From Norana najaformis (lineage: Eukaryota; Annelida; Clitellata; Crassiclitellata; Hormogastridae): DNA of 64,000 nt. Below are positions 15,885 through 49,096 of the stretch, piece by piece. The notes under the pieces were generated by a model. That model was given only the letters and a program-made list of their open reading frames with translations. It was not told the origin of the DNA and ran no database searches. Location: positions 31,999,351-32,063,350 of the forward strand of contig OZ029914.1 of NCBI GenBank assembly GCA_964023275.1, given 5' to 3'. Numbering within the stretch: position 1 is the stretch's first letter; every line of letters starts with the position of its first letter. The position numbers and the translations under genes are program-made.

Positions 15885-15988
15885 ATGAACATGAATATTT
15901 AATCTAAATGAGTGACTTCTATTGCGCCGTTATCATAATCTATAAAACGTCAATCGATAGTGCGTAAAGTGAGCCTGAAGTCAAAATT

Positions 15989-16883: not shown

Positions 16884-16988
16884 GTAATATCAGAGTTTTA
16901 ATTATGAAATATAAAGTAGAAGAATATACAGTATATCTATATGTAATAATCGGTAAATATTGAAGTTTCATGTATTGTTATGCTTTAG

Positions 16989-17890: not shown

Positions 17891-17913
17891 ATAACGAAAA
17901 CCACTTAGTCTGA

Positions 17914-20958: not shown

Positions 20959-21480
20959 TTGTGACAGTGAAGGACTTGATTCGTGTGTCAACGGATACCT
21001 ACAACGTGACGCCGACATCTACAGGATTCGACCGATGTGCTGAGACGAACTAAGCCGAGAAGAACAACCAAGGGAACAACCGTTTCAACAAACAACTACC
21101 ATTTCATCAACCAAAGCAGGAGTCTGGAGAAGCCAGCAACAAGTGACGCAGGGTAACGGAGGTCGGAGCTCAACAAGAAATCATTCTCCAGCGGATGTGG
21201 CAGTTTCCCCAAAACTACACATTCGACAAATCTGGAACGAAATCTGGTGAGCGCATTCCGAGTCGTTAATCAGTGATCATTCGTCATTTTGTTCTGTGTT
21301 TCATAGAAGCAGCGTGATTAGTGATTTATTGAGAGTGTGAAGGCAGAAGCCGTTAAACTATATTACTATTACTGTTACGTTATATTATTGAATTATCTTA
21401 TTGTGTCTGTTGGTACAAGTGAAACTTGTAGAGATTTATCTATTGTCGTACTGTATTAATTGGTAGAATTTTATATTGAA

Positions 21481-24231: not shown

Positions 24232-24580
24232 ATATCATTGCGCTGTAATATGTTTTAGTTCATTCTGATATGTTGTCTTAGAAACTTATGTAATTAGCTG
24301 AGTAGTCAAATCTTAAAGTGTTACACGATTATATTATTATGTATTTTAAAGATATTACTCGTTTTTGGTTTTGTTTGTGCTTTCTGTTATAGATACGTAG
24401 ACTTGTAACTAAATCGCCTGGCGAGTTCGCTGACGTACGGCTTTGAAAGACATTAAACCTAACGCCGTTCAATGCTCGTCTGTGCTTCTGTAAATAAATC
24501 AGCGTTAAATTGAACTGTTTGCACACCTAAAGAAAGCCAACTGTGTACTTTCCGAAGCTACTGCGGGGTGCCGTCAGCTT

Positions 24581-24594
24581 CAGAAGTGGGGAGA
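24581..24594 (+). other. Polypurine tract of LTR element 1
   Basis: 'cagaagtggggaga' lies immediately before the TG of the 3' LTR, the position and composition expected for plus-strand priming. Confidence 0.75.
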
Positions 24595-25284
24595 TGTAGT
24601 GAAAAGTTGTAAAAACAATGAGGATTTTAGGGTTTTGCATATTGTAGATTGTATTACGTCCGACAGTTTAGCTATTGTGTTTATGCAATTAATTTGCACG
24701 GAACACTGGGGAACAGTTGGATGTAATTAACGAGAGGCGGATAGGACGCCCGTAGTTGACAGGTAGAAGTAAACGAGACAGAGGGAGAGTCAGAGAGAGA
24801 GAGAGAGAGAGAAAGGCGGAGCAGAGGGATGCTGATCGGATGGCGAAAGGGAGAATTTGGGTGATTGACAGATGAAGGGGAAAGTTAAGGAAGGGTGCGA
24901 AGCGAAGAAGGCATTCGCTAAACAACGGTCGAAAGAGGCGTTAGGTTCCGGAGAACAGAAGAAAGATAATAAACCTGTATCTCTTAAACGGACCTCGCTA
25001 GACTAATAGGCCGATGCGAATCATAGACTCTGAGTTTGCTGAATTTGTTGTAAATACGGTGTAAATACGTGTAATATACGAGTGAAAGAAAGAATCGGTG
25101 TTAAGTCTCTGTACGGTCGGACTTATCCGATCACGAACCCGCGTGCTGTTAAAGGCCTAAAGTCCCCCGAAGATAAAGCCATATCAATAGCACCGCTCGC
25201 CACCATATCCTGAAAGGAGACTTGTTTTCGCCAGCGATCCATCGCATCGCAGGACTCGCAAGCAAAATCGTTTCTTTCAGTACA
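24595..25284 (+). repeat. 3' LTR of Gmr1-like element 1
   Basis: 690 bp, matching 20269-20958 apart from the site reading 'aaaatcgttt' here against 'aaaaacattt' in the 5' LTR. It is followed directly by the second copy of the 757-bp repeat. Confidence 0.9.
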
Positions 25285-26041
25285 GCCTACTTGTTGCTTT
25301 AGCTGCAAATTCTGCCCGTCAATTATAGACGTTTTTAAATTAGTCATAATTTATATTCTGTCAGACATTATTTGCTTGTTTAGTGTTTCATAAAAGGTGT
25401 ATCGTATTTTTCACTTTGTTCTATTCATACTCCGATTTTATTCAACTAAGATGGCAAACCGCAATGCCTTCTCTATTATCTTTTATTCTGTCACCGCCGC
25501 TGGCTTCCTTAGTTTCCTCAAATCCGATGTATATGGCCAGCTAATAATTGTCTTTATCACTAATTTTCTAATTAAAATTACTATTTTAAAGCCCAGATGG
25601 TACAATTTTCCTACCCAATCAGACCGGGAGGATCTCACCTGAAATGTGATTGTTGAAAACGTCCTGGCTGAATAATATAAATGTTAATATTGCAGGAACA
25701 GAGACCATATTTGGTGGCATAAAAGAAGGTAGCCAATAGGAAAGCGTATCGGCCTCTTAAATGTTCGTCCATGGGTTTTGACTCTTGGTCCGCTTAAATA
25801 CCAAGGGTTAGGGTTCACGGCCAGCCTGGATTGCCATAGAGCTGATGGAAAGAATGGGCATATTTTTATCCCCTTGCAAACGTCTTGCCACAACGATCAG
25901 CGGTTCAGTGCGACTGTGTTCTGAAGTATGTTCGAGGAGCCGGACATATGCGAAGACGAACCATTCAAGGGATGTACTCCACTTTGCATGCAGTAGTATG
26001 TTCCATTCTTTCTTTATTCTTTCTTTCCTTCTTTCCTTCTC
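25285..26041. repeat. 757-bp direct repeat, right of the LTR element
   Basis: Starts 'gcctacttgttgctttagct' exactly at the 3' LTR end and runs to the pyrimidine tract where the 5' LTR begins in the left copy. From 26042 the sequence continues collinear with 39262 onward, so this is the copy attached to the original right flank. Confidence 0.85.
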
Positions 26042-26142
26042 TTTCTCTTTCTCTCTCTCTCTCTCTCTCTCATTCATCTTTTGGGTAAAAATCATTAACT
26101 TTTAAAATAAACTCTTATGATAATAAAGAATGTGTTTTTCAG

Positions 26143-26267
26143 AGTGAAGTGAATATTATGTTGGACAAACTTTTACAGACTTGGTTACGCTTTGTAAAAG
26201 CACAGAAGCTTGTTGATGCTGCGATTACAATTTCTGGCTGTGGGTATCATTCTTCACGTAGACCCGT
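26143..26267 (+). pseudogene. Type 2 array exon, subtype a, copy 1 (frameshifted)
   Basis: Acceptor 'gtgtttttcag', donor 'CCCGT|gtaaga'. It reads 'SEVNIMLDKLLQTWLRFVKA' then 'QKLVDAAITISG', followed by one extra base relative to 39357 that shifts the frame to an early stop. It is preceded by a long CT-rich tract (about 26010-26072). A SINE starts about 78 bp after the donor. The other duplicate of this exon is intact. Confidence 0.5.
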
Positions 26268-26344
26268 GTAAGAGTATGTATTATAATTACTTCACACATT
26301 ATAGGTTTGCATTTTAAACTTCATATTTAAATCATATTTCACAG

Positions 26345-26595
26345 AGGTGCGTGACTGTCAAATGGTTAGCGTGCTGGACTGTCAAGCGAAAGGTTGGGGT
26401 TTCAAATCCCCAATAGGCATTTCGAGATTTTGACTCCACCTACGCCCCCTGTCGAACTCACCTAAAATGAGTACAATGACCGTAAATTGTCAGTGGGAAG
26501 ATCAGACGGCGATGGAGAGAAGTGGTTAGCTGCCTTCATATGCCGAGCTAAAATATGAAGTCGCTGTCTCTCAGGCTAGCTTAAAGGATAGGTCT
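26345..26595 (+). repeat. tRNA-derived SINE, copy 1
   Basis: 'atggttagcgtgctggac' resembles an A box and 'ggggtttcaaatcccc' a B box with stem, as in tRNA-derived SINEs. The body 'gtcagtgggaagatcagacg' to 'gaagtcgctgtctctcag' follows. Further copies are at 29959, 39558, 43176 (truncated) and 43529, each directly downstream of a type 2 exon. Confidence 0.7.
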
Positions 26596-26699
26596 TCTTC
26601 TTTTTCTCTATAAACTCTGTTGTTTCGCAAAGAATTCAGATCCAATAGTTAAGTCATTTCTGAATCATTTTTGATCTAGTCGGATATCTAAAAATCCCA

Positions 26700-28020
26700 C
26701 ATCATCTGGTTTAGGCGAAAATTACTTTTATTATGAAAGCCATTATCCCAGTTGATACGGTGCATTTTACATTAGAAGGCAGTAAAATAAAGACCAAAAA
26801 CAGATGTAAAGATAGCACTGTAATGAATATAATGTAAAATAATGTAAACAAGGTGAGATAATATCAGATGATATGATATGACAAAATATGACATGACAAA
26901 ATAAAAAAATGACACTGGATGAGGCGAAACAAGACAAGACAACACAAGACTTAGATGTTAATCTAATCTAACCTATTCCATTCTATTCTTTTCTAATCTA
27001 ACAACTTCCATGGCGTCATTATTGTTATTAATTTTAAAGTACTATAGCATCGATGCATAACGTAGAAGTGTCAACCGATGGCCCATCAAATTTAAGCCGC
27101 AGTCAGACGAATATCGAGAAAATCAGTCCACTAAACAGAATTGCAATCTACGGCGGATAAACCAACTGAAGAACCCATTGGATGCCTCGGGTGTATGATA
27201 ATGACTAAGCATCATCGATGGTTGTTGCTTCCAGTCAATTCATATTCAAATGTCTTAATCATTTGGAGAAGCCAGATTGATTTTTCGATAGTTCGAAAAA
27301 GCCAGAAGTTAGGGAGCTGTGGATAAGCAAGTTTCAAGAAGTGAGGTTTAAATTTAAACCTGAATAACATCGAGGAACTGAGGGAACGAACAGAACTAAG
27401 CAGCGAATTCGAAGGCCTTGGGCCAACTAATGCGAACGCTTGAAAACCCAACACCGTCTTTGTCACAAACGGGTAGCTCAAATATCTGTATATTTGTGAA
27501 CAGTGTTAATATGACATAAAAGAGAAGGTACTGAAGGAATTAGGAAGTTGTTCAAGGTACCATATGGCTATAAAAAGAGACTGATAAAAGTGCAAACTCA
27601 TCATCCTTCTGGCTAGAATTAATCCCTCATAGGGATGATCAGTGGCTCCCGTGGTCGAAGATCATACTGTGACTCAAACTTCTCAGGATCGTTCCGGTAC
27701 CGCTAGAATTTCTCACGTGTCCATATTGTAGCAAACAAATCGTATATGTCGCTGCCAAGACGCTGCGGAACCGGACTGAAAGGTGTTGACGAATCTGCCA
27801 TTTACCTTTTCATCTCCCAAAATATAGATTTCAATATTGTAGTATTGTACTGTTTGTAAATTTGTCTCAGCAGCTAAACCCTCGTAAGCATTATCCGATG
27901 GCCCTGAACCGTTGTGAGTGAAGGACTTGCTCAAGGTCCTTACACAGTAACCGTCTCTAACTTATACTCTCTGCGTTACATACCGGACAGCGTTACATAC
28001 CGACGGCTACCGTCAGGGAA
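26700..28020. other. Duplicated non-coding stretch with LINE fragment
   Basis: Collinear with 39915-41230. It contains a low-complexity ATGATATGACAAAAT region (26840-27010) and a minus-strand LINE end. A short open frame at 26714-26830 ('KAIIPVDTVHFT') is also present at 30327, 39930 and 43899 but is broken in some copies. Confidence 0.5.
27290..27481 (-). repeat. CR1-like LINE C-terminal fragment, copy 1
   Basis: The minus strand reads 'FALVGPRPSNSLLSSVRSLS' followed by 'LFRFKFKPHFLKLAY', the C-terminal end of CR1/L2 ORF2 ('VGPrlWNsLP..lR', then 'FKsrLKthLF'). Its duplicate is at 40500-40693. Confidence 0.65.
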
Positions 28021-29690
28021 GAGCTAACTGTGTGTGCTGATCGATGGCACAGTGTCGCAAACGTCTGTATCTGTTCACCCCGTCGAATCTTCTTATGTGA
28101 CTGGAATGGTGAAGACAGTGTGCATCAAAACCCCTCTGGTGGATTTATCGCTGGAAAATGATCAAGAACATTTATCCACAAAATAAAGATATTACAAGAA
28201 GCGAGTTTTGGTCATATCAGGACCAGCTGTTTAGAACTAGACATCTCAGTAACACCTTAAGGGTAAACAGAAATTACGGACACGAGAAAACAATTTAGAC
28301 GACTGGAAAGAACAGAACATAAAACCCCTTATGGAAGAAGAAAGTAAGCACTAGCAAATGGTTAGAGGTGCGGAATGCTTGCTTCTGCTATAAGAGCGTT
28401 GTGCATAACAACCAGAAATGGAAACCATTTCAGTGGGCGACACAAAGATCGACGTATCCAACTCGTATAACAATCATCAGCCATATTAAGAGAGTCTTTG
28501 GAGCGGCGTCGACCTTAAATCACAGACATGTGCAGGCTGTGTGACCTATCGGCTAGCTGGTGACGAATGAGTATGCTGTACAGATCCGACTCATTGAGGA
28601 ATTTCTGTGCATTGCGTTTTCTACAGTCATCAAGGGACTGTTGGGCAGTTAGTCAACTGTGTGCTGTGGACTTCATCTATGGTTGTCGTTCCTTGCTTTC
28701 CATCTTCGATGCAGCACGTTCAGAAATTGCAACATGGCTTCACCTGTCAAATCTAAATGAGAATCCGTCAGATGGGCCCTGCGGGAGCCCACTATTTCTC
28801 ACTTTTCTAGTTATCTGAGCATTTATATTGTTTTTTTAGCCCAATCTTGAGCATTTTCTACCGATGAACTTCAGCATAATTTAATCTAGGCTATAGCAGA
28901 GGGCGCTCTTTATTAGATTCACTTGAACAGTTAGGCAAGCATCTCTTTCCAGAAATTTGGGTTAGGCCTACTTGTTGCTTTAGCTGCAAATTCTGCCCGT
29001 CAATTATAGACGTTTTTAAATTAGTCAGAATTTATATTCTGCCATATTAATTTCTTGTTTAGTGTTTCATAAAGGATGTATCGTATTTTTTGTTCAATTA
29101 ATACTCCCATTTTATTCAACTGAGATGGCAAACCGCAATGCCTTCTCTATTATCTTTTATTCTGTCACCGTCGCTGGCTTCCTTAGTTTCCTCAAATCCG
29201 GTGTATATAGCGAGTTCATAATTCTCTTTATCACTAATTTTCTAATTACAATTGCTATTTAAAGGCCCAGTTGGTACAATTTTTCTACCCAGGCAGACCA
29301 GGAGGGTCTCACCTGAAATGTGACTGGTAAACTTCCTGGCTGAATAATATACAGATGATAATATTGCAGGAACAGCGACCCGATTTAGTGGCATAAAAGA
29401 AGGTAGCCAATAGGAAAGCGTATCGGCCTCTTAACTGTTCGTCCACGGGTTTGACTCTTGGTCCACTTAATAACCAAGGGTTGGAGTTTACGGCCGGCTT
29501 AGATTGCCATTTGACTAGAGCTTCTGGAGTTAGTAGGCATTTTTTTTATCTGCTTGCAACGTCTTGCCACAACGAACAGCGTTCAATGCGATTGGGTTCT
29601 GAAGCAGGTTCGAGGAGCCGAACATATGCGAAGGTGAACCATCGCATCTCTATGCAGTGGTATGTTTGAGTCTTTCTTTCTTTCCTCCTT
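28020..29690 (+). repeat. Block B, copy 2
   Basis: Diverged relative of 18660-20268 and near-identical to 41230-42905. It shares 'aggcctacttgttgctttag' at 28965 and 'atggcaaaccgcaatgcc' at 29125. The latter opens a short hydrophobic frame here and in copy 1 but is frameshifted in copies 3 and 4. It leads to the type 2b exon at 29758. Confidence 0.75.
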
Positions 29691-29757
29691 TTTTCTCGCT
29701 TTGAATTTCATCTTTTATTTGCATATTCCTCTCATAATAATAATGTGTTTTTAACAG

Positions 29758-29881
29758 ACTGATCTGGAAAAATTTCTTTCGGCCTTGGAAAGTTTCGTTC
29801 AGCTCACAAGCCGAAACAAAGAAAGGTTTGAAGAGGCTGTTAGGAAGCTTTTTCCTGGGGTACTACTTTATGGAAACCCAG
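29758..29881 (+). CDS. Type 2 array exon, subtype b, copy 1 (about 41 codons)
   Basis: Acceptor 'tgtttttaacag', donor 'CCCAG|gtaaga', 124 bp, starts phase 0 and ends phase 1. Encodes 'TDLEKFLSALESFVQLTSRN' followed by 'EEAVRKLFPGVLLYGNP', an amphipathic helical segment. Against the copy at 43329 about 30 of 124 bases differ (about 15 residue changes against 4 silent codons), while 37 bp upstream are identical and about 95 bp downstream differ by about 7%. Against subtype a (39357) only about 35% of bases match, yet the following intron is about 90% identical. Family not recognised. Confidence 0.55.
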
Positions 29882-29958
29882 GTAAGAGTATATATCATAA
29901 TTATTTTCCACAATATAGGTTTGCATTTTAAACTTCATATTTAAATTATATTTCACAG

Positions 29959-30205
29959 AGGGTGCGTGACCATCAAATGGTTAGCGTGCTGAACGGTCAA
30001 GGAAAGGTCGGGGTTTCAAATCCCCACTATGAATTTCGAGGTTTTGGATCCACCTACGCCCCCTGTCGAACTCACCTAAAATGAGTACAATGACTCTAAA
30101 TTGTCAGTGGGAAGATCAATCGGCGAGGGAGAGGACTGGTTAGCCGCCTTCATATGCCGAGGCTTAAATATGAAGTCGCTGCCTCTCAGGCTAGCTTAAA
30201 GGATA
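29959..30205 (+). repeat. tRNA-derived SINE, copy 2
   Basis: Same A-box-like 'atggttagcgtgctgaac' and B-box-like 'ggggtttcaaatcccc' as copy 1, with the same offset from the type 2 donor. It was therefore duplicated with the exon rather than inserted independently. Confidence 0.7.
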
Positions 30206-30417
30206 AGTTTTCTTCTCTTTCTTCTTTATGAACTCTGTTGTTTTGCAAAAAGAATTCAAATGCAGTTACTTAAGTTATTTATGAATCACTGTGGATCTAG
30301 TCGAATATCTAAAAATCCCACATCATCTGGTTTAGGCGAAAATTACTTTTATTATGAAAGCCATTATCCCAGTTGATACGGTGCATTTCACAATAGAAGG
30401 CAGTAAAATAAAGACCA

Positions 30418-32110
30418 TGCGCAGGACTTCAGCTGCTCAGCAGCGCCTGTTTGGCTCTACCGGGACCACGCGGCTTCTCCCGACCGGCTCATCATCGTTC
30501 GCCTACATGCGTATTTGTTGCGCTACTGCTTCTGCTAGGATGAGTCTAACCCAACCCAGGTCCTGCTGCAACTCACCGGCATCTCGAGCCACTCACCTTT
30601 GGATCCCTGAACGCGCCCAGCGCCGTCCGCATAGTCGATTTGATTGAATCGAACCAGTTAGATGTACTGGGAGTCAAAATCTACCGCTGGCCATGTTCCA
30701 ACCTTAATGAATTTTACCATGAATGAAGCAACTTCCGGAAATCCCATAGACCCTCTTGCATCAGGTAGAGACTATGTCGGCACACATCTTGATCACCTTG
30801 AATAGTTGGCTCCGCTGAGAAAATTTACGAAATGCCGAGGAAAAAGATCAATCGCTGGCTATCTCCTGAAGCCACAGCTGCAAAACGACTTCGTAGACGC
30901 TTATAAAGACGTTGGAAGGCTACCGATGATGAACTTCTTCGACGCGCGTATCGGTCACCATGCCATAACGCCAACAAACTGATCAACGACTCACGCCGAC
31001 AATACTACTGTGATACCAAATCGGGAAAGCCTAACGGTTCTTATCTACAATGGTCTGTAATAATGGATGTACTGCACTCCATAGTGCCATCTGAGGCGTA
31101 ACCGAATGAAGAATGTCAGAAACGCTGTTCCACATTCTCAGACTTCTTCAAAAATAAGATCAAGTCCAGACAACCCATAGACCATCTTGCGTCAAATAGA
31201 GACTATGTTGGCACACACCTTGATCACGTCAGACCTGTGGATGGCGCAGAAATCTTCAAGCTACTGTTTTCCTTGGCCGGAAAATCATCTCCGATGGATT
31301 CTTTCCAATCGTCTTTGCTACTGTCATGTGCGGACGTGTTCACTCCAATCATCGTTCGTCTCTGCAATTTGTCTTTTAGTTGCGGACGGTTCCCAGCCTG
31401 TTACAGACCTGCCTCTGTTACACCTTTGCTGAAGAAGGAAGGCCTTGATCCTGATGATCCTTCCAAATACAGGCCGATCTCAAATTTATACACTCTGTCA
31501 AAAGGTTTTGAACGTGTCTTTCTGGCACGTCTTTTGCCGCATGTCAGTAGCTCCGGTAACTTTAACAGTCATCAATCAGCTTACCGTGGCCATTACTCGA
31601 CTGAAACGGCCTTACTGAAGATTCTAGATGATGTCTACACCGCTTCCGGACGACGACAGCCCACCCTACTTATCGGCTTTTGACACGATCGACAAAACAA
31701 CACTCATCACTAGGCTGCAGAAGACATTCGGTATCAGCGGTGATGCGTTAGATTGGATCCGTAGCTACCTGTCTGACCGGTCACAACATGTCAGCATTGG
31801 ATCATCAAGGTCGCAGCCGACTACCTGCGAATACGGTGTCCCACAAGGGTCGTTTCATGGCCCGATTCTTTTCACGTTGTATGTGGCTCCAGACGCTGGT
31901 GTTATTTCCGCACACGGCATCAATCACCACCAGTATGCAGATGACACCCAACTATAAAAGCGCTTGATCACATTGACTCTGATACCAGCAACCTAACATG
32001 ATGTACCGAAGCAGTACGCTTGTGGTTTCTAACTAATGGACTGTGTCTAAATCCAAAGAAGTCTGAAATCATTGTACTCGCCACTTCCTCATCAATAAAA
32101 TCGATCGTGT
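30418..32110 (+). pseudogene. CR1/L2-like LINE, copy 1 (internally deleted)
   Basis: Begins at the point where 26800 and 30418 stop matching ('aaataaagacc'). It contains an endonuclease start ('LIESNQLDVLGV'), then an internal deletion, the pre-RT region ('KLINDSRRQYYCDTKSG'), and RT motifs 'KYRPISNLYTLSK', 'AYRGHYSTETALLK', 'YGVPQGSFHGPILFTLY' and 'YADDTQL'. Multiple frameshifts and stops. It breaks off at 32110 in mid-RT, where copy 2 continues. Confidence 0.85.
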
Positions 32111-32530
32111 TATCACTTGTTTAGTTACAGTTCCATTAATACAGCGAACTCCTCCTGTTCTGTAGCTGAAACCTAGCATAACTCCAAAAACTAACACCGC
32201 CCGGGTGTCCTTCAATTGTGCTGAGCTTATGAGTCGGTCCATAAGCTGAAGATTTCTTTACTTTCCTTCTTTAGACCATAATTACAAGTTCCGCCTTCAA
32301 TATTCGCTGTGCTGTTTTCATCAACAAAGCCATCTGGTTTCTCAACAAGCGGTCCTCGCTACAATTTTCTAGAGTAACATGACGATTTAAATTACTCTCA
32401 GCATAATTATCTACACGTGATTAGAAAAAGCGACCCCTGGAAAACTTCATAATAACTTGAATTCAAAATTAATAACAATTAAACGTTTAATTGGTCAGTA
32501 ACCAATTTAACTAATTTGTTTGATGCATTA
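32110..32530. other. Unassigned spacer
   Basis: Between the truncated LINE and the mariner pseudogene; no recognisable coding or repeat content apart from AT-rich sequence. Confidence 0.4.
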
Positions 32531-32532
32531 AA

Positions 32533-33250
32533 CTATAATTTGTGCTCAAAATGTCCTCCTTTGGCATTGACACCAGCAGTAAGGCGTGCCTGACAGTGTC
32601 TGATTGCCGTATCAAGTATGCGTTGATCCAATTCATCCCAATGCCTGTCTGATACGTAGCTCATCGAAATTCCGATTTTTGCTTTGTATACTTTTTCTTG
32701 CATTATTCCCCAGATTTTATAGTCCACAGGATTAGGTCTGGACATGTTGGAGGCCAAAGTGCAGGAGGTTTGAAATCAGGAGTCTAGTTCGTCAGCAGTT
32801 CGACGGTTTCACGAACTCAGTGTGCTGGCACACCATCCTAAAATGTATAATACTCTGACGTTTTTCGTATATCTGAAATGTGTAAATACTCTGACATTTC
32901 TCGTATATTTGGTTTGAACTTCTCCGATAACAGGGCAATCCGGTAGTACGCACCATTAAGTTTAACGCCAGGTTCCACAAAGTGTACCCCAATTCTGCGA
33001 AGTGCAAACACACTTACTGAAACCATTAGTGATTGACTGAAAGTCGAATGAGTGCGAAGCAAACGATTCCCATGGATGTTCTTCTTAGTACTGACGGCAG
33101 CATACAAATGATCATTTTGACTATTCGATGGTGCAGCGACAGTGAAAAGTTTCTCATCATTGAGTCATCAGTGAACCAAATGAAATTGACCATATGCGCA
33201 GGATAACGTCGTAAAATCGTTTATTTCACTCTTCCTTTATGCTCGCCCGA
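32533..33250 (-). pseudogene. Mariner/IS630-type transposase pseudogene
   Basis: The minus strand reads in broken frames 'LYAAVSTKK'-like sequence, 'GNRLLRTHSTFSQSLMVSVS', 'IGVHFVEPGVKLNGAYYR', a degenerate 'QDGVPAH' (second catalytic Asp), then 'RPNPVDYKIWGIMQEKVY' and 'GGHFEHKL'. This is the layout of mariner-superfamily transposases with the PNPVDY third acidic block. Frameshifts and a stop occur near 32800. Confidence 0.8.
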
Positions 33251-33639
33251 TGGCGCCAGAATGCCACTCCCACTTCCTCCAGTCCGTCTCTCTTGCATAG
33301 ATATCTTAATAGCAGTGCTATTAATATAATCTTTTCGATGTTCTCGTTACGCCTCGCAGTTCTTTGTCTGCCGCTACCTTCCTGACGATCCGGTTCTATG
33401 AGTCTTCCTCAGAAGGGCCTTAATTGTAACCCCAAGTTTGAAAGAGAATCTTTGCCGAATAGGAAACAATTACAGCAATTTCAAAAAGCCAGGGCCCTTA
33501 TTATGTTCTATTTTGTGGTATCAGCTACGACTTAAAGTAGAATTTGAATTCTCTGGAGTTTCTACGCCATTTACTTTGTGATTCCGATGACAAACGAGTT
33601 ACATTAACCGAGGCGGCTGGAATCCAAAGCGTTATTTAA

Positions 33640-33905
33640 AGATATCCTGGGAAACAAAGCCTGATTCTGCCTATGTCATGAATATGCATTTGTGACGATT
33701 TACAGATACCATTCACGCATTCGGTGAAGGACAAAGTATAGGTAAAGTCAACACCAAAGTTACAAGCAGAATCAGCCAGAATAAGTAAGTCGCGTGGATT
33801 TAAAGATTCAAGCCATTCAAACTTTTTGAGCTGGTGTGGAATGCACAGTAGTAGAAATTCAGTTTTCGACCGTCTTAGGAGGAGTTTATTAGCCACACTC
33901 CAAAA
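33640..33905 (-). pseudogene. CR1-like LINE reverse transcriptase fragment
   Basis: The minus strand encodes 'ANKLLLRRSKTEFLLLCIP', 'NFGVDFTYTLSFTECVNGIC' and 'HIHDIGRIRLCFPGYL'. It corresponds to the CR1 RT thumb and connection region ('LnpdKTEfl', 'lGv.fD..LsF..hv'). It is followed by a sequence (33920-34010) shared in reverse with 18490-18550 and 27890-27950. Confidence 0.65.
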
Positions 33906-34194
33906 CTGACAAGACAAACAAGGTAACCGACGGTTACTATGTAGGGACCTTGAGCACAATCCTTCACTCACAGTTGCTAACGCAATTGACTGATGCTTAA
34001 TCATTAGGTAGTGACGGATAATAATAGCAGAAATAATATTAACAAGCTGTCAAACGAAATGTAACTTTGAGAATCATCCGCGTTGAAATGACATCCTAGT
34101 GAATAATTGCCGAGCAATGCACGTATATTGGTGTGGCGTACTAAGTGAACAAAAAAATACCAAACACAAACCATGTGGAACGTCACGTATTAAA

Positions 34195-34440
34195 AATCGT
34201 AAACGTAATTCCAAAATTTATACAGCGCCCAACGAAAGCCGAGCCGCTGGGATCAGCTTATTCACTGTCAAAACAAAATCGATAGGCAAAAGGGTTCGGT
34301 TCCAGGTCAAGATCCAAGAGTCAGGCAGAGAGACAGCGTGGCAGCTACGGTGGATGATGTTTGGGGTTGGAGAGGAGAGAGAGATAAGAGGAAGAAGGGG
34401 GAGCCAGGATAGGATCTGTAAAAGAGGAGCCAATATCAGA
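34195..34440 (-). repeat. Retroposon 3' region, second minus-oriented copy
   Basis: Same family as 12830-13045: 'tatacagcgcccaacgaaag', 'gatcagcttattcactgtca', 'caaaatcgataggcaaaagg' and 'ccaggtcaagatcca'. The retroposon's 3' end is at the left. Confidence 0.7.
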
Positions 34441-35195
34441 AGAACTAAACAGACGAGGGCCGTGATATAGAATTAGCATAGTAATAAGATATGAAGTAAG
34501 GCTGGTCAAGCACACAACCACACAGTTAATATACATTCAACAGGGAGTTACTGATGAAGAGGGAGGACATGTAACAGCCATTGAAAAAGAGCGTTGAACC
34601 ACCTAAAGCTTTTTCAACGAGAATATACCCTGTCTAGAGCATTACAAACAGCAAGAATGAAACTTACAAAACGCTAATGAAACTTTTTAATGCAGGATAA
34701 GAAACAATATTAATATGGTATTATATTAAGGTCGCCAATGTGTATAGCTCCCCTTTCAAAATACTTGGAACGTTGCCAGGAGGACGGCCTTCGAAATTTT
34801 CAATGTTTAAGACAGCGATTTGTCATGCTCAGTTGCCAGACATAGAGGCCATAGACAAGAATGGTCTCCAACAGACTTTCAATATACTTTAAACATCTAG
34901 AAGCTTGCTCATATCGGCTGCTGCTTACACGCGCCGGAGCGAGTAGCCGATTCAGAGCAGATGCATATCGGTGTTACTCAGAGGTACAGATCAGAGAACG
35001 TTTCGACGAGTACGTGACCGAAAACGTTAGTAGGGTCAGAAATAGAAAACACACTTACTTACTAGATCACAAAAGATTATAATTATAGCGTTCACTGTGT
35101 TTCGTTTAAAGCATAAATAAATTTCACATCTCATCCGTCACGTGTCGTTTCTGGCAAGAGAGACAAATTGCAAAGACGCGGCATGCCTGCCAGAA
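34440..35195. other. Unique spacer before duplication copy 2
   Basis: Sequence not seen elsewhere in the window. The open frame at 34861-35082 shows no resemblance I recognise. The duplication resumes at about 35196. Confidence 0.4.
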
Positions 35196-35297
35196 GAACA
35201 TGAATATTTAATCTAAATTAGTGACTTCTATTGCGCCGTTATCATAATCCATAAAACCTCAATCGATAGTGCGTAAAGAGAGCCTGCAGTCAAAACT

Positions 35298-35382
35298 ATG
35301 ATCCGCTGGAGAAGCCGGTTGACACCCGATAAGTCAGAGAAACCAGATGTCATGCTGCGTTGGTTAAACAACCTGAAACAAC
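35298..35382 (+). CDS. Possible upstream coding exon, copy 2 (28 codons)
   Basis: Same 85-bp ATG-to-donor structure as 15989-16073, with Ser changed to Thr at residue 9. Weak, for the same reasons. Confidence 0.2.
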
Positions 35383-35982
35383 GTGAGTTTTAAGTTTAGT
35401 TCTGATGAAATTATATAGTCCAGGAGTCCATTACTGTTCTGGTGGGTGGAGCAGTAAGAGTCAAAGCATCCGTTGTTCGGGAAATATTTACTTGGGACCT
35501 ACAAGAAAGAGCTTAAACGGAGTACGTTTGCGTACTGCATGGGAATCCTGTTGCATGGGGTCATTATAACATTGAAAAAAGCCGACATAGCGAAACTCTA
35601 TATAAGTAGGCCTACTTACAGCTTTATAGCTAACGCAACAAAGAACGTAAATATGCAAAGAACTCATTTTTACTCATTTTATGCCTGCTTCTCTTCTGAA
35701 TGCGTTTCTTACAAATTTATTTTGCGGACTTTGTGTTTTCTCATCCACGGTTACATGTACTCTGATATTATCAATTTCAATCTAATTTTAGCATACATTG
35801 AACCCAAAAGCTGGCATGTACAGTTGTGACTTCTTTTTTCATGGGTAACTTAAGCTTGGAAAGAGGACTTCAAAAAGCGTTCACTATAATTTTAATTATG
35901 AAATATAAAGTAGAAGAATATACCGTATATCTATATGTAATAATCGGTAAATATTGAAGTTTTATCTATTGTTATGCTTTAG

Positions 35983-36177
35983 AACACAAACGCATCTAAT
36001 GTAACCATGTTATTGGGGTTGGAAAAAACAACCAAGGAAACCGAAAAAGTGTTGACGGCTTTTTTGGAGGGAGAAGGGAAGAGGCGAGAGCTGTCACTTA
36101 CTCTTGGCATAACATCAGCTATTCAGTCAGTGCCACAAAGATTAAAGGAGCGATTTTTAGCTCAAGAAGTCCAGGAG
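35983..36177 (+). CDS. Type 1 array exon, copy D (65 codons)
   Basis: Acceptor 'tatgctttag', donor 'CAGGAG|gtaata', phases 0 and 0. Begins 'NTNASNVTMLLGLEKTTKE' and ends 'QSVPQRLKERFLAQEVQE'. It differs from copy B at about 23 of 195 bases, while the adjacent introns differ by only about 2-3%. Same length as the three upstream copies and uninterrupted. If the donor is unused, a stop follows 11 codons later. Confidence 0.6.
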
Positions 36178-36734
36178 GTAATATCAGAATTTGGCCAATG
36201 GTCTTGTAAATAAAAACATTTTGTAATTTGTCTGAATTCAGTCGATTAGAAAGTTTACAGAAATGTTTCCACTGTACCTCTATGCATCTAAGAGGAACTC
36301 GTTCGGAGCATTAAATCTAAGTTTCAAATCGATGCATGCCTTTCTCTAAGGCGTGTTGTTGTAAACAATAATTTGAGGTTTAGTGGTATCCACGTAATTT
36401 GCTATCAGTTCTCCTTGTCTGTATCACAAGCCATTCTTTGAATCACTCTAATTGAACTTATTCACTAATGCTTACATGCTACTACGAAATCGACAATTCT
36501 TCCCTGCCGACAGTAGTTTTATGCATATTTCAGTCGCGTACTATGCTCAGGACTGTTAAAAGTAGCGCTTATGACTTAGATCTACTCTAAGTGCGAGAGT
36601 GCCCCCGACACATATCCTGTCACCGAAACGGCTGTCCTGCGTATTTTGTCCTATTTACGCGATGCTATAAATGTCTACCTTGTGAAAACACTATGCAAAT
36701 TAGTTCCCTATATCCCACGGGAATATTCATGGAA

Positions 36735-36880
36735 TCAGATTTTGTATGCCTCAAACTGTCTTAGTTTACACGCAACTGATCTGGTTACTTGCCGACTCGA
36801 TTTCTGCAACTCAATTCTGATTGGCGTTGTTAAAAGAGATTTGCACGAACTCCAAATTGTTTAAAATTCTCTAGTCAGAG
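36735..36880 (+). repeat. CR1-like LINE RT fragment, duplicate
   Basis: Duplicate of 17740-17890 with the same 'LVTCRLDFCNSILIGV' reading. Confidence 0.7.
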
Positions 36881-36905
36881 CGATAACAAAAACCTCTTAG
36901 TCTGA

Positions 36906-37166
36906 CTATGGCTCCACACTTATAGCAATGCATCTTTGGGAGACATCAATCCTAGTTATGCTGTCAGGCACAGTGTGGGCATGACGGAGGTTTCTATAAT
37001 TTTGTCGTATTTTCTCGCTTTCGCCCGCCATATTCATAACATTTGTAAGAACCAGATAAGGCATCATCTGCATTTCCTCTAACAGTTCGTCGTTCAGAAT
37101 TCTCACAACTATTCGATCGCGTATAAGTTCACCCTTGATTCCTCCAAATTTACATGTCTCGTCCAA
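36906..37166 (-). pseudogene. Ty3/gypsy gag fragment, copy 2
   Basis: Duplicate of 17914-18174 with two residue changes; same 'ELIRDRIVVRILNDELL' core. Confidence 0.65.
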
Positions 37167-37649
37167 GAAAATAGTATAGTCATTAATGCCTCATACGGCT
37201 ACCCCTCTCGTGGATTGCGGCAACTGAATTTGGCGCGTTCATAGCTTACACATTTCCTCACAACAAAACAAATATCAAAACGCTGTTACTATAGTCGTCA
37301 ATTATCATGTCTATCAAACTTCTACGCGGCTTACTGACCGGTTTGCTTTTCAGTATTCGCATGCCTCTTCATGGGTATTTCATACCTACACTGTTCAGGC
37401 CCACCCCAGTGTGTAGATATAACATGGACATCTGCACTATCACTATTATTATTTCTGCATTTATTAAGCGCTACTGTATGATGACTAAGCATCAATCAAT
37501 GGCATTGAGCCGTTTTGAGTGAAGGACTTGCTCAAGGTCCCTGCACAGAAACAATCTCAGTGAAGGCTTGAACTCGTTACGAACAGATTCATCCAAACAT
37601 CCAATCATCTAAAGTATATCAGTTACTCGAGAAGAGAAGAGATAAGCTG

Positions 37650-39262
37650 TGTTTGCTGATCGATGGCAACGTGTGATAAGAGATCAAATCCATCGATCGA
37701 ATCTTCTTATGTGACAATAATGGTGAAGGCATTGTGCATGAAAACGCCTCTGATGGATGCTATCGCTGAAAAATGATCAAGATATTTATCCACCAAATAA
37801 AGATGTCTTTTACAAGAAGCCAGTTTTCGTCATATGAGAACAAGTTATCTAGAACTAGAAATTTCAATAACACCTGAAGGGTAAACAGAAATTACAGGCA
37901 AGAGAAAAGAAGCGAGACAATTGGAAAGAACAGAACAAGGAACCCCTTCTGGATGAAGAAGAAAGAAAGCACTAGAAAATGAGAGTAATATGCGTAAAAT
38001 CCAGAGAGGGAAACCATTTCGATGGATGACATCAAGATTCTTGTATCCCAAACGCAAAACAATCACAAGCCGGGTTAGCGGGTGTTTGGAGCGGCGTCGA
38101 CCGTTGTCCTAAATTAGTGGCCGGCTGGTGAAGTACACATGGAGGGATTTCTGGGCATTGCGTTTTCTATCGTCTTCAAGAGACTTTTAGACAGTCAACT
38201 GTGTGCTGTGGATTTCATCTGCGGTTGTCGTTCCTTACTTTCTCATCTTCGATGCAGCACGTTCAGAAATTCCAACTTGGTGTCACCCGTTAACCCTAGA
38301 TGAGAATCCGTCAGCTGGGCCCTGCGGAAGCCCAGTATTTCTGACTTTTCTAGTTATCTGAGCATTTATATTGTTTTGTTTAGCCCAATCTTGAGCATTT
38401 TCTACCGATGAACTTCAACATAATTTAATCAAGGCTATAGCAGAGGGCGCCCTTTGTTAGATTCACTTGAACAGTTAGGCAGACGTCTCTTTCCAGGAAT
38501 TTGGGTTAGGCCTACTTGTTGCTTTAGCTGCAAATTCTGCCCGTCAATTATAGACGTTTTTAAATTAGTCAAAATTTATATTCTGTCAGATATTATTTGC
38601 TTGTTTAGTGTTTCATAAAAGGTGTATCGTATTTTTCACTTTGTTCTATTCATACTCCGATTTTATTCAACTAAGATGGCAAACCGCATGACTTCTCTAT
38701 TATCTTTTATTCTGTCACCGCCGCTGGCTTCCTTAGTTTACTCAAATCCGATGTATATGGCCAGCTCATAATTCTCTTTATCACTAATTTTCTAATTAAA
38801 ATTACTATTTTAAAGCCCAGATGGTACAATTTTTCTACCCAGACAGACGGGGAGGGTCTCACCTAAAATGTGAATGTTGAAAACGTCCTGGCTGAATAAT
38901 ATAAATGTTAATATTGCAGGAACAGAGACCATATTTGGTGGCATAAAAGAAGGTAGCCAATAGGAAAGCGTATCGGCCTCTTAACTGTTCGTCCACGGGT
39001 TTGACTCTTGGTCCGCTTAAATACCAAGGGTTAGGGTTCACGGCCAGCCTGGATTGCCATAGAGCTGATGGAAAGAATGGGCATATTTTTATCCCCTTGC
39101 AAACGTCTTGGCACAACGATCAGCGGTTCAATGCGACTGTGTTCTGAAGTATGTTCGAGGAGCCGGACATATGCGAAGATGAACCATTCAAGGGATGTAC
39201 TCCACTTTGCATGCAGTAGTATGTTCCATTCTTGCTTTATTCTTTCTTTCCTTCTTTCCTTC
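37650..39262 (+). repeat. Block B, copy 3
   Basis: Near-identical to copy 1 (18660-20268). Its 'atggcaaaccgc' frame carries a one-base deletion. It ends in a CT-rich tract that corresponds to the empty insertion site of LTR element 1. Confidence 0.8.
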
Positions 39263-39356
39263 TCTCTCTCTCTCTCTCTCACACATTCATCTTTTGGGTA
39301 AAAATCATTAACTTTTAAAATAAACTCTTATGATAATAAAGAATGTGTTTTTTCAG

Positions 39357-39480
39357 AGTGAAGTGGATATTATGTTGGACAAACTTTTACAAACTTGGTT
39401 ACGCTTTGTAAAAGCACAGAAGCTTGTTGATGCTGCGATTACAATTTCTGGCATGGGTATCATTCTTCACGTAGACCCGT
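39357..39480 (+). CDS. Type 2 array exon, subtype a, copy 2 (intact)
   Basis: Acceptor 'gtgttttttcag', donor 'CCCGT|gtaaga', 124 bp, phase 0 start and phase 1 end. Encodes 'SEVDIMLDKLLQTWLRFVKA' followed by 'DAAITISGMGIILHVDP'. Length, phases and placement equal subtype b, but bases match subtype b at only about 35%, while the downstream intron and SINE are about 90% identical. The paralogue at 26143 is frameshifted. Confidence 0.55.
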
Positions 39481-39557
39481 GTAAGAGTATGTATTACAAT
39501 TACTTCACACAATATAGGTTTTGCATTTTAAACTTCATATTTAAATCATATTTCACA

Positions 39558-39805
39558 GAGGTGCGTGACTGTCAAATGGTTAGCGTGCTGGACTGTCAAG
39601 CGAAAGGTTGGGGTTTCAAATCCCCAATAGGCATTTCGAGATTTTGACTCCACCTACGCCCCCTGTCGAACTCACCTAAAATGAGTACAATGACCGTAAA
39701 TTGTCAGTGGGAAGATCAGACGGCGATGGAGAGGACTGGTTAGCTGCCTTCATATGCCGAGCTAAAATATGAAGTCGCTGTTTCTCAGACTAGCTTAAAG
39801 GATAG
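39558..39805 (+). repeat. tRNA-derived SINE, copy 3
   Basis: Same element and same offset from the type 2 donor as copy 1, including 'atggttagcgtgctggac' and 'ggggtttcaaatcccc'. Confidence 0.7.
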
Positions 39806-39914
39806 ATCTTCTTCTCTTTCTCTATAAACTCTGTTTTTTGCAAAGAATTCAAATCCAATAGTTAAGTCATTTCTGAATCATTGTTGATCTAGTCCGATAT
39901 CTTAAAATCCCCCA

Positions 39915-41230
39915 TCATCTGGTTTAGGCGAAAATTACTTTTATTATGAAACCCATTAACCAGTTGATACGGTGCAATTTACATTAGAAGGCAGTAAAAT
40001 AAAGACCAAAAACAGATGTAAAGATAGCACTGTAATGAATATAATGTAAAATAATGTAAACAAGGTGAGATAATATCAGATGATATGATATGACAAAATA
40101 TGACATGACAAAATAAAAAAATGACACTGGATGAGGCGAAACAAGACAAGACAACACAAGATTTAGATGTTAATCTAATCTAATCTATTCCATTCAATTC
40201 TTTTCTAATCTAACAACTTCCATGGCGTCATTATTGTTATTAATTGGAAAGTACTATAGCATCGATGCATAACGTAGAAGCGTCAACCGATGGCCCATCA
40301 AATTTAAGCCTCAGTCAGACGAATATCGAGAAAATCAGTCCACTGAACAGATTTGCAATCTACGGCGGATAAACCAACTGAAGAACCCATTGGATGCCTC
40401 GGGTGTATGATAATGACTAAGCATCATCGATGGTTGTTGCTTCCAGTCAATTCATATTCAAATGTCTTAATCATTTGGAGAAGCCAGATTGATTTTTCGA
40501 TAGTTCGAAAAAACCAGAAGTTAGGGAGCTGTGAGTAAGCAAGTTTCAAGAAGTGAGGTTTAAATTTAAACCTGAATAACATCGAGGAACTGAGGGAACG
40601 AACAGAACTAAGCAGCGAATTCGAAGGCCTTGGGCCAACTAATGCGAACGCTTGAAAACCCAACACCGTCCTTGTCACAAACGGGTAGCTCAAATATCTG
40701 TATATTTGTGAATAGTGTTAATATGACATAAAAGAGAAGGTACTGAAAGGAATGAAGAAGTTGTTCAAGGTACCAGATGGCTATAAAAAGAGACTGATAA
40801 AAGTGCAAACTCATCATCCATCTGGCTAGAATTAATCCCTCATAGGGATGATCAGTGGCTCCCGTGGTCGAAGATCATACTGTGACTCAAACTTCTCAGG
40901 ATCGTTCCGGGACCCCTAGAATTTCTCACGTCTCCATATTGCGGCAAACAAATCGTATATGTCGCTGCCAAGACGCTGCGGAACCGGACTGAAAGGTGCT
41001 GACGAATCTGCCATTTACCTTTTCATCTCCCAAAATATAGACTTCAGTATTGTAGTATTGTACTGTTTGTAAATTTGTCTCAGCAGCTAAACCCTCGCAA
41101 GCATTATCCGATGGCGCTGAACCGTTGTGAGTGAAGGACTTGCTCAAGATCCTTACACAGTAACCGTCTCTAACTTATACTCTCTGCGTTACATACCGGA
41201 CAGCGTTACATACCGACGGCTACCGTCAGG
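39915..41230. other. Duplicated non-coding stretch with LINE fragment, copy 2
   Basis: Collinear with 26700-28020. It contains the minus-strand CR1 C-terminal fragment at 40500-40693 and the same low-complexity region. No gene recognised. Confidence 0.5.
40500..40693 (-). repeat. CR1-like LINE C-terminal fragment, copy 2
   Basis: Duplicate of 27290-27481 ('FALVGPRPSNSLLSSVRSLS'). Confidence 0.65.
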
Positions 41231-42905
41231 GAAGAGCTAACTGTGTGTGCTGATCGATGGCACAGTGTCGCAAACGTCTGTATCTGTTCACCCCGTCGAA
41301 TCTTCTTATGTGACTGGAATGGTGAAGACAGTGTGCATCAAAACCCCTCTGGTGGATTTATCGCTGGAAAATGATCAAGAACATTTATCCACAAAATAAA
41401 GATATTACAAGAAGCGAGTTTTGGTCATATCAGGACCAGCTGTTTAGAACTAGACATCTCAGTAACATCTTAAGGGTAAACAGAAATTACGGACACGAGA
41501 AAACAATTTAGACGACTGGAAAGAACAGAACATAAAACCCCTTATGGAAGAAGAAAGTAAACACTAGCAAATGGTTAGAGGTGCGGAATGCTTGCTTCTG
41601 CTATAAAAGTGTTGTGCATAACAACCAGAAATGGAAACCATTTCAGTGGACGACACAAAGATCGACGTATCCAACTCGTATAACAATAGCAAATGGTTAG
41701 AGGAAAGAGAGTCTTTGGAGCGGAGTCGACCTTAAATCACAGACATGTGCAGGCTGTGTGACCTATTGGCTAGCTGGTGACGAATGCATATGCTGTACAG
41801 ATCCGACTCATTGAGGAATTTCTGTGCATTGCGTTTTCTACAGTCATCAAGGGACTGTTGGGCAGTTAGTCAACTGTGTGCTGTGGACTTCGTCTATGGT
41901 TGTCGTTCCTTGCTTTCTCATCTTCGATGCAGCACGTTCAGAAATTGCAACTTGGTGTCACCCGTTAACCCTAGATGAGAATCCGTCAGCTGGGCCCTGC
42001 GGGAGCCCACTATTTCTGACTTTTCTAGTTATCTGAGTATTTATATTGTTTTTTAGCCCAATCTTGACCATTTTCTACCGATGAACTTCAACATAATTTA
42101 ATCTAGGCTATAGCAGAGGGCGCTCTTTATTAGGTTCACTTGAACAGTTAGACAAGCGTCTCTTTCCAGAAATTTGGCTTAGGCCTACTTGTTGCTTTAG
42201 CTGCAAATTCTGCCCGTCAATTATAGACGTTTTTAAATTAGTCAAAATTTATATTCTGCCATATTAATTTCTTGTTTAGTGTTTCATAAAGGGAGTATCG
42301 TATTTTTTGTTCAATTAATACTCCGATTTTATTAAACTAAGACGGCAAACCGCATGACTTCTCTATTATCTTTTATTCTGTCACCGCCGCTGGCTTCCTT
42401 AGTTTCCTCAATTCCGATGTATATGGCCAGCTCATAATTCTCTTTATCACTAATTTTCTAATTACAGTTACTATTTAAAAGTCCAGATGGTACAATTTTT
42501 ATACCCAGACAGACCGGGAGGGTCTCACCTGAAATGTGACTGTGGTAAAGTTCCTGGCTGAATAATATACAGATGATAATATTGCAGGAACAGCGACCCG
42601 ATTGAGTGGCATAAAAGAAGGTAGCCAATAGGAAAGCGTATGGGCCTCTTAACTGTTCATCCGTGGTTTTGACTCTTGGTCCACTTACTAACCAAGGGTT
42701 GGGGTTTACGGCCAACTTAGATTGCCATTTGACTAGAGCTTCTAGAGATAGTAGGCATATTTTTATCTCTTTGCAAGGTCTTGCCACAACGAACAGCGTT
42801 CAATGCGATTGGGGTCTGAAGTATGTTCGAGCAGCCGGACATATGCGAAGGTGAACCATCGCATCTCTATGCAGTGGTATGTTTGAGTCTTTTTTTCTTT
42901 CCTCC
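41230..42905 (+). repeat. Block B, copy 4
   Basis: Near-identical to copy 2 (28020-29690), with a small rearrangement near 41690 where 'agcaaatggttagagg' is repeated. It leads to the type 2b exon at 42975. Confidence 0.75.
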
Positions 42906-42974
42906 TTTTTTCTCGCTTTGAATTTCATCTTTTATTTGCATATTCCTCTAATAATAATAATGTGTTTTTAACAG

Positions 42975-43099
42975 ACTGATCTGGAAAAATTTCTTTCGGC
43001 CTTGGAAAGTTTTGTACGCCTGACAAGCCGAAACAAAGAAACATTTTGAAGAGGCTGTTAGGAAGCTTTTTCCTGGGGTACTACTTTATGGGAACCCAG
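42975..43099 (+). pseudogene. Type 2 array exon, subtype b, copy 2 (frameshifted)
   Basis: Acceptor 'gtttttaacag', donor 'CCCAG|gtaaga'. It begins 'TDLEKFLSALESFVRLTSRN', then a net one-base insertion ('gaaacattttgaagagg' against 'gaaaggtttgaagagg') breaks the frame. Near-identical to 29758 otherwise. A truncated SINE (43176-43275) follows. Confidence 0.5.
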
Positions 43100-43175
43100 G
43101 TAAGAGTATATATCATAATTATTTTCCACAATATAGGTTTGCATTTTAAACTTCATATTTAAATTATATTTCACA

Positions 43176-43275
43176 GGGGGTGCGTGACCATCAAATGGTT
43201 AGCGTGCTGAACGGTCAAGAAAGGTCGGGGTTTCAAATCCCCGCTATGAATTTCGAGGTTTTGGCTCCATCTACA
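43176..43275 (+). repeat. tRNA-derived SINE, copy 4 (truncated)
   Basis: Keeps the tRNA-like half and stops at 'ggttttggctccat'. The next sequence restarts upstream of the following type 2b exon, marking a local tandem duplication breakpoint. Confidence 0.65.
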
Positions 43276-43328
43276 CCACTATCTTCTATGTGCATATTCC
43301 TCTCATAATAATAATGTGTTTTTAACAG

Positions 43329-43452
43329 ACTGATCTGGAAAAATTTGCCTGTACTTTGGAAAGTTTCGTTCGGCTCATAAGCCGAAACAGAGGAACATTG
43401 CAAGAGGCTACCAGAAAGCTTATACCAGGGCTGATACTGCATGGAAATCCAG
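43329..43452 (+). CDS. Type 2 array exon, subtype b, copy 3 (intact, strongly diverged)
   Basis: Acceptor 'gtttttaacag' (the preceding 37 bp match those before 29758), donor 'TCCAG|gtaaca', 124 bp. Encodes 'TDLEKFACTLESFVRLISRN' then 'EATRKLIPGLILHGNP'. About 15 of 41 residues differ from 29758, and most substituted codons change the residue. The exon is only about 350 bp from the frameshifted copy 2. Confidence 0.55.
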
Positions 43453-43528
43453 GTAACAGGATATATCATAATTATTTTCCACACTATAGGTTTGCTTTTT
43501 AAAGTTCATATTTAAATTATATTTCACA

Positions 43529-43770
43529 GGGGATGCGTGACCATCAAATGGTTAGCGTGCTGAACGGTCAAGGAAAGGTCGGGGTTTCAAATCCCCACTA
43601 TGAATTTCGAGGTTTTGGCTCCACCTACACCACTATCGAACTCACCTAAAATGAGTACACTGACTGTAAATTGTCTTTGGGAAGATCTATCGGCGAGGGA
43701 GAGGTCTGGTTAGCCGCCTTCATATGCCGAGGCTTAAATATGAAGTCGCTGCCTCTCAGGCTAGCTTAAA
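43529..43770 (+). repeat. tRNA-derived SINE, copy 5
   Basis: Full-length copy about 77 bp after the type 2b donor, as in the other units. Confidence 0.7.
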
Positions 43771-47345: not shown

Positions 47346-47698
47346 TTTTAGGAAATATCTCAAATACAAAATCTATGTAAGTTTTCCTATATATCTCAAG
47401 CATATCATTTTACAAGACTTACACGAAATGGTCTTTCTCCTTTGACGACCAACTTTTTCAATTATCGCGTTTAGCGATAACACCGAGAAAAGGCAACAAA
47501 ATTACGTTGATTAAAAGGTTTTTGTGTATAATATACACGTCTGGGGCAATTGACACATCGGGCAGTATTAGCGTTCTAAGTACTGTTGCTTTTAAGAGAA
47601 AGGACAGTTGCTCTTTACTTCCGTAGCAAATTCTGTATGAACAAAAAACGAAACCAATATCGTATTTTGTAGACATTGGAAATTTGATCCAAAATCAA

Positions 47699-47782
47699 AT
47701 GGCCAGTTGGCCTGTTCCGGTAAAGGTCAGGAAGCTGCAGAATCCAACAGATGGGAAGAAAATTGAAGCCGTTGTTAATGAA
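47699..47782 (+). CDS. Possible first coding exon before type 1 copy E (28 codons)
   Basis: An ATG opens 28 codons ('MASWPVPVKVRKLQN' then 'TDGKKIEAVVNE') and ends at 'GAA|gtatgt', a good phase-0 donor. The next exon-like feature downstream on this strand is type 1 copy E, which starts in phase 0, so the two would join in frame. The Lys/Arg-rich N-terminus has no signal-peptide character. Evidence is only frame, phase and proximity. Confidence 0.3.
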
Positions 47783-48913: not shown

Positions 48914-49096
48914 CCAACGGTTCTGCTGTTGATTGATATCAACGTCATAAGCGTGCAGGAGGCGGAAGCCCTTGTGAATATGCTGGAGGAAGAAAAGAAA
49001 AAAGGGCAGCTACTGGTGACAATTGGAACAACCTCCGACTACGAGAGGGTCCCAACTGTCATCAGGGAATCTTTCGATTCGAAACAAATCAAACAG
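48914..49096 (+). CDS. Type 1 array exon, copy E (61 codons, most divergent)
   Basis: Acceptor 'gcgaatatctag', donor 'AAACAG|gtaata', phases 0 and 0. It has the same architecture as the other type 1 exons ('LLIDINVISVQEAEALVNML', 'ERVPTVIRESFDSKQIKQ') but only about a quarter of residues match. By hand the last 87 exon bases match copies C and D at about 39-46%, whereas roughly 100 bp of downstream intron ('gtaatatca...ggtcttgtaaat...') match at about 75%. This is the clearest case of an exon changing faster than its own intron. Confidence 0.5.

Follow-up and report, generated by a model that had tools for sequence, protein, structure and literature searches.

A tandem array of three exon types

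The window analyzed here is a 64,000-nucleotide stretch of the genome of the annelid Norana najaformis (C2:31999351-32063350, within a 608-Mb genome of 17 contigs). On its + strand, related exons that code for protein form a small tandem array; they are of three types (type 1 or T1, type 2, and M). The four T1 exons of the array, at 14935..15129, 16689..16883, 16989..17183 and 35983..36177 (to be referred to as copies 14, 16a, 16b and 35), are all 195 bp long and open, with phase 0→0; a 5-bp insertion sets the acceptor region of copy 14 apart. A diverged T1 exon at 48914..49096 (T1_48) is open as well, has the same phases, and gives a weak match to Pfam AAA. The type-2 exons belong to subtype a (26143..26267 and 39357..39480) or subtype b (29758..29881, 42975..43099 and 43329..43452). 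Intact copies (39357, 29758 and the second subtype b copy, 43329) are 124 bp long and open, with phase 0→1, in agreement with the equal length and phases that a previous sequence-only reading of this DNA had reported for 29758 and 39357. The other two of the five, 26143 and 42975, are 125 bp long, and this one-base change shifts their frame (for 26143, relative to 39357). A predicted M exon, newly found at 47673..47782 (110 bp, phase 1→0), lies between type 2 and T1_48 and has a homologous region at the second locus described below.

Exons of types 1 and 2 follow one another in alternation. The phases permit frame-compatible joins from type 2 (0→1) through M (1→0) to T1 (0→0), and also from T1 to type 2; the frame would shift if one transcript held two type-2 exons. 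The same strand carries two duplicated blocks, block A (15880..30060), which is interrupted by a long terminal repeat (LTR) element at 20269-25284, and block B (35189..43277), with pieces that match block A at 94-97% identity. The stretch 57356-57470 is open, its composition is helical and its acceptor plausible; it is a candidate, unproven, for a further exon after T1_48.

Divergence of exons and flanks

The type-2 exons 29758 and 39357 had been described as nearly unrelated coding sequence, about 35% identical and close to chance, in almost identical introns. The identity is as stated, with 44 matches in 124 ungapped positions, although this exceeds the mean of 32 from 2000 shuffles (p = 0.0085). 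A gapped alignment has 61 matches in 121 positions, where 60 shuffles gave 43 on average and never more than 59, and the protein alignment score is 4.6 standard deviations over shuffles. Judged by these alignments, the two exons are near chance in identity and yet homologous. The insertion of unrelated exons into one intron is thereby rejected, as subtypes 2a and 2b are homologous. The description of the introns holds on the right side, where 7/79 and 11/99 bases differ (18/178 over the following 180 bp, about 10%), but not on the left, where 14/44 differ in the preceding 45 bp and the wider block is about 79% alike. Overall, exon divergence in this pair is 0.496 and flank divergence 0.144 (p = 8e-12).

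Between exons 29758 and 43329 there are 28 differences in 124 bases, falling in 15 replacement and 4 silent codons, and the 38 bases directly upstream are identical in both, all essentially as first noticed. The exon divergence is 0.226, as compared to 0.053 in the flanks (p = 5e-6). The 15:4 ratio does not amount to a replacement excess per site, as the divergence at replacement sites (dN) is 0.22 and that at silent sites (dS) 0.45 (p = 0.13).

The T1 exons show an even stronger contrast. Among the four copies, the exons are 12-32% diverged and homologous flanks 0-7%, mostly 3% or less. The six exon pairs differ at 23-63 of 195 bases, without insertions or deletions. Copies 14 and 16a have 1/235 and 0/95 differences in the left flank, and copies 14 and 16b have 0/100 and 2/240 in the right flank. 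Divergence is about 3% between the flanks of copy 35 and those of copies 14 and 16a, and on the right side of 16b. The 100 bp to the left of 16b differ at 5 positions from 16a and at 7 from copy 35. These counts omit the right flank of 16a and the left flank of 16b beyond a short shared stretch, as the sequences are nonhomologous there. Between copies 14 and 35, the divergence steps up at the start of the exon and down at its end.

The relationships among the copies also depend on the region compared. Exon sites unite 16a with copy 35 (20 sites, versus 0 and 1 for the alternatives), whereas in the left flank 16a differs from copy 14 by 1 base and from copy 35 by 10. Decay of methylated CpG in the exons was considered and rejected, since transitions are not dominant in the six T1 pairs (transitions/transversions 25/31, 19/20, 26/37, 20/17, 13/10 and 26/23).

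Recent block duplicates serve as controls. In the window, the excess of exon over flank divergence is not significant for 26143/39357 (exon 3/124, flanks 16/589 and 17/598; p = 0.67) or 29758/42975 (exon 8/124, flanks 38/598 and 2/149; p = 0.095). At the second locus, 28072 and 36531 differ at 2/124 exon and 6/600 flank positions, 25682 and 32078 show no difference throughout, and the M pair has 0/107 in the exon and 3/589 and 7/600 in the flanks. Exon and flank are therefore in step in recent duplicates, and the exons are not faster-mutating in general. Constant exon hypermutation was rejected on these controls together with the inconstant ratio of exon to flank divergence (see below).

A second locus 2.6 Mb away

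A DNA search of the genome with the flank 38544-39230 found at least 22 places, among them C2:29.389-29.396 Mb. This second locus was studied in 60 kb (C2:29364001-29424000), and its positions are counted from the start of that stretch. Five of its exons are type-2-like, each 124 bp long and with the phases seen in the window; three of them (25682, 32078 and 34241) are identical, and the other two are 28072 and 36531. Also present are a pair of M-like exons without differences (29122 and 37592), each 107 bp long and with an in-frame stop at the expected P-loop lysine, and a T1-like exon of 198 bp (46400). Phases are thus the same at the two loci, and exon lengths nearly so. One check proposed at the outset was whether the exon reading frames are open more often than expected. 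In the window, a 123-nucleotide stretch has a 16% chance of being open in a given frame, and three of the five type-2 exons are open; at the second locus all five are, with the three identical copies among them. Tandem blocks of 2.2-2.4 kb at C2:29384001-29404000 are 100% identical and possibly represent a false duplication.

Between the two loci, exons are 0.49-0.63 diverged and homologous flanks mostly 0.26-0.35. Flank homology was not found to the left of second-locus exons 28072 and 36531 or far to the left of window exon 16989. The two sides of an exon can also differ strongly. For second-locus exons 25682 and 28072 the divergence is 0.025 on the right and 0.50 on the left, and for T1_48 and three T1 copies it is 0.24-0.26 on the right and 0.45-0.48 on the left.

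Whole-genome protein searches found four copies with T1 and two with subtype 2a, all in the window, and a whole-genome DNA search with subtype 2b gave three matches. The search with T1_48 returned T1_48 itself, three T1 copies of the window, and two chance-like matches (on C6 and at C2:47.05 Mb). The number of loci is given as at least two.

The exact 758-bp duplication around the LTR element in the window and the fully identical blocks at the second locus raise the question of an assembly or haplotype artefact, in which block A and block B, or else the copies of T1, would be allelic or falsely duplicated. Such an artefact alone would not yield exon differences of 12-32% inside near-identical flanks, and the pattern recurs between loci 2.6 Mb apart. 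We consider this explanation very unlikely.

Silent and replacement changes in the exons

In the six T1 pairs, dS is 0.27-1.58 and dN is 0.09-0.26 by the Nei-Gojobori method (NG86), with dN/dS ratios of 0.12-0.33. Type-2 exon 25682 of the second locus has dS of 0.67 and 0.78 and dN of 0.14 and 0.12 relative to 28072 and 36531, respectively. Across all within-locus pairs away from saturation, dN/dS is 0.12-0.49, and dN is below dS in every pair with a finite dS, with near-saturation ratios of up to 0.85. The variable T1 sites number 22, 15 and 41 at codon positions 1, 2 and 3 (of 65 each), so that 41 of 78 are at position 3. When T1_48 is compared with T1, or type 2 across the two loci, the divergence is deep; the second codon position is then the most conserved, and the third is close to what unrelated sequences would show. 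For type 2 between loci, 30-33 of 41 third positions differ (31 would be expected if unrelated), as compared to 16-19 second positions.

These values bear directly on the accelerated-exon pattern proposed by the sequence-only reading. The observation itself stands, as the exons are far more diverged than the surrounding non-coding DNA for three exon types at two loci. Replacement-driven selection as its cause is not supported. Long-term positive selection on the protein, of the kind found in venom, immune and gamete-recognition families, could drive exons past neutral introns, and it would fit the 15 replacement and 4 silent codons of 29758/43329 as well as exon divergence and dN that are above the divergence of introns at all depths, including the comparison of the two loci. 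However, the silent sites are more diverged still, with the low dN/dS ratios away from saturation noted above, the codon positions show constraint, and the two block-duplicate pairs in the window are without a significant excess. On these grounds positive selection was rejected as the main cause. The exon/intron contrast is probably not due to accelerated exons, and we regard this explanation as unlikely.

The anomaly is better read as young introns than as fast exons. From the divergence patterns, the exons look old and constrained, and the non-coding DNA young. Moreover, dS within the T1 array reaches about 1.6, more than the corrected distance of about 0.38 between the introns of the two loci, and the introns therefore look too young even across loci.

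Slowly evolving introns could in principle give the same contrast. If the flanks were constrained, for example by splicing regulators, silent exon sites would outrun them, and between-locus flanks are indeed still alignable on both sides of three exon types. A constant dS/flank ratio is predicted in this case, but the observed ratio varies from about 8 to several hundred, independent of flank age. The alignable flanks also span hundreds of bases and include repeat-like sequence, and some flanks are wholly nonhomologous. Constraint on the introns appears somewhat less probable even than positive selection on the exons.

Diversification restricted to exons and acting through the mature RNA, by RNA-templated rewriting or by selection for nucleotide change against small RNAs, would raise silent and replacement divergence together and place the edges at splice sites, both of which are seen. 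However, an exon excess is not significant in the block duplicates of either locus, the ratio is inconstant, and no substitution type dominates, which makes this the most improbable of the explanations considered.

Proposed homogenization of introns

Young flanks around old exons, of an age that differs between pairs and between the two sides, would be expected after gene conversion and unequal exchange from which the exons were exempt. We lean, with modest confidence, towards an array of type 2, M and type 1 internal exons from one divergent AAA-like family, located at two places on one chromosome, in which the introns would have been homogenized while the exon lineages escaped. Repeated ectopic gene conversion and unequal crossing-over may have overwritten the introns among neighboring units. 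Where a tract reached an exon, the divergence of that exon would stop it, or selection would remove it, the variants presumably not being interchangeable. The exon variants could be alternatives within one transcript or parts of neighboring duplicated genes.

Gene conversion is inferred here from divergence patterns, and several observations weigh against this explanation. Exon and intron distances conflict, and shared derived flank sites are few (2:0:0 on the left and 0:1:1 on the right). The pair 16689/35983 has an exon excess (23/195, versus 10/325 in the flank; p = 1e-4) despite its location in block duplicates; flank exchange fits this excess better than a difference in rate, short of proof. 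Homogenization does not explain what separates the T1 exons, given that most of their differences are silent. The dN values are larger than the intron distance at all depths; with introns that kept time as a true clock, this would amount to acceleration, as the sequence-only reading proposed. Between loci, dN is about 0.9-1.5 (about 1.0-1.5 for T1 and type 2), and 2.2 for M at saturation, as compared to the corrected intron distance of about 0.38. Higher dN/dS ratios are found in near-saturated pairs, 0.70 for 43329/39357 and 0.84-0.85 for second-locus exon 25682 with 29758 and 43329; these ratios and the between-locus dN say little either way. Finally, between-locus introns differ by a fairly even 30% or so, with no obvious fresh tracts, and homogenization there would therefore have to be old.

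A related and rather improbable possibility is that one locus keeps ancient, non-interchangeable exon cassettes for an AAA-like domain, perhaps one no longer able to bind nucleotides. A given cassette would be selected through mutually exclusive splicing or through haplotype, much as in allorecognition or immunity, and free recombination would keep the introns young and new combinations coming.

The AAA-like exon array looks like an extreme form of a process already known, in which introns are homogenized and exons kept apart. The usual order of conservation is inverted with no sign of positive selection, and the divergence of silent sites can exceed that of the adjacent intron several hundredfold. 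Exon divergence in excess of intron divergence is thus by itself no proof of adaptive evolution, and codon-position and block-duplicate controls provide a means of separating the readings. The two-locus family is open to tests of alternative splicing or polymorphism.

Comparison with known systems

In the L/M opsin genes of gibbons, exons are more diverged than introns at synonymous and at replacement sites alike, replacement is not significantly above synonymous divergence, and exon and intron trees differ, which was attributed to gene conversion among introns, with selection acting against conversion of the exons (PMC3213168). Silent and replacement exon divergence both exceed intron divergence in the present array as well. 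The opsin study concerns whole genes sequenced in 94 individuals, with tracts detected (PMC3213168), whereas small internal exons of one genome are compared here, the contrast is larger, and conversion is inferred. In badger major histocompatibility complex (MHC) class I genes, parts of one gene have separate histories (PMC3434948). The likeness to MHC class I, HLA introns included, lies in old variants kept in one part with recombination homogenizing another. In MHC class I the variable domain is under positive selection, unlike the exons here, with dN/dS below 1 away from saturation.

Introns are more conserved than exons between paralogues of snake-venom phospholipase A2 and of similar accelerated-exon families, where replacement change is raised relative to silent change. 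The array shares the conserved introns, but its replacement change is lower than its silent change, the opposite of the venom genes. With mutually exclusive exon arrays of the Dscam type, it shares tandem exons of one length and phase. Unlike in Dscam, types 1 and 2 alternate, and the present array is described from genomic sequence. In a limited search of the open-licence literature, we recognized no array of this kind.

The predicted product

The joined type 2-M-type 1 exons resemble, in their predicted translation, a degenerate AAA-like P-loop domain. The best match to Pfam AAA (PF00004) is that of the predicted M and T1_48 join (E = 0.0039, 18.1 bits, profile positions 55-126). The type 2, M and T1_48 join has an E value of 0.0077, T1_48 alone 0.011, and the predicted product of the second locus, with X for its stop, 0.012 (16.5 bits, profile positions 1-125). 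All of these matches are under the curated cut-off of 21.2 bits, and AAA was not matched by products with array T1 exons or by the second-locus T1 exon alone. Two predicted joined products (profile positions 55-126 and 1-125) match the model, weakly, in the expected order of segments, which we take to be the P-loop, Walker-B and sensor-1 segments of the AAA model. The P-loop lysine is absent, being replaced by asparagine in the M exon of the window and by a stop codon in both M exons of the second locus. Given the weak matches below the cut-off and the missing lysine, the similarity is a lead and not an assignment to the AAA family.

A sequence search of the PDB gave three weak matches for the T1 profile (E of 0.11 or above) and none for the joined product, and the one weak NCBIfam match was to another family. 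The AlphaFold model of T1 alone has a mean predicted local distance difference test (pLDDT) score of 55 and was set aside.

Other elements in the window

Scans of the window for tRNA genes and Rfam families found none. The LTR retrotransposon within block A has LTRs at 20269-20958 and 24595-25284 that are 99.7% identical. It is flanked by the exact 758-bp duplication (19512-20269 and 25285-26042), which is too long for a target-site duplication and is therefore a recombination product or an assembly error. A second LTR element (51125-56948) has LTRs at 51125-52183 and 55891-56948 that are 97.5% alike, a gag-like open reading frame at 53123-55240 with a weak Pfam match, and a 42-bp tandem repeat at 53689-53858. 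Two copies of a sequence resembling a long interspersed element, presumably of the CR1/L2-like class, are located at 30735-32109 and 45395-46791 and are 92% alike; a 461-bp tandem duplication covers 45005-45919. Two long open reading frames on the opposite strand (61738-62292 and 62518-62973), of 184 and 151 amino acids, have no Pfam match. A tandem repeat at 4376-5233 contains 2.3 copies of a 373-bp unit.

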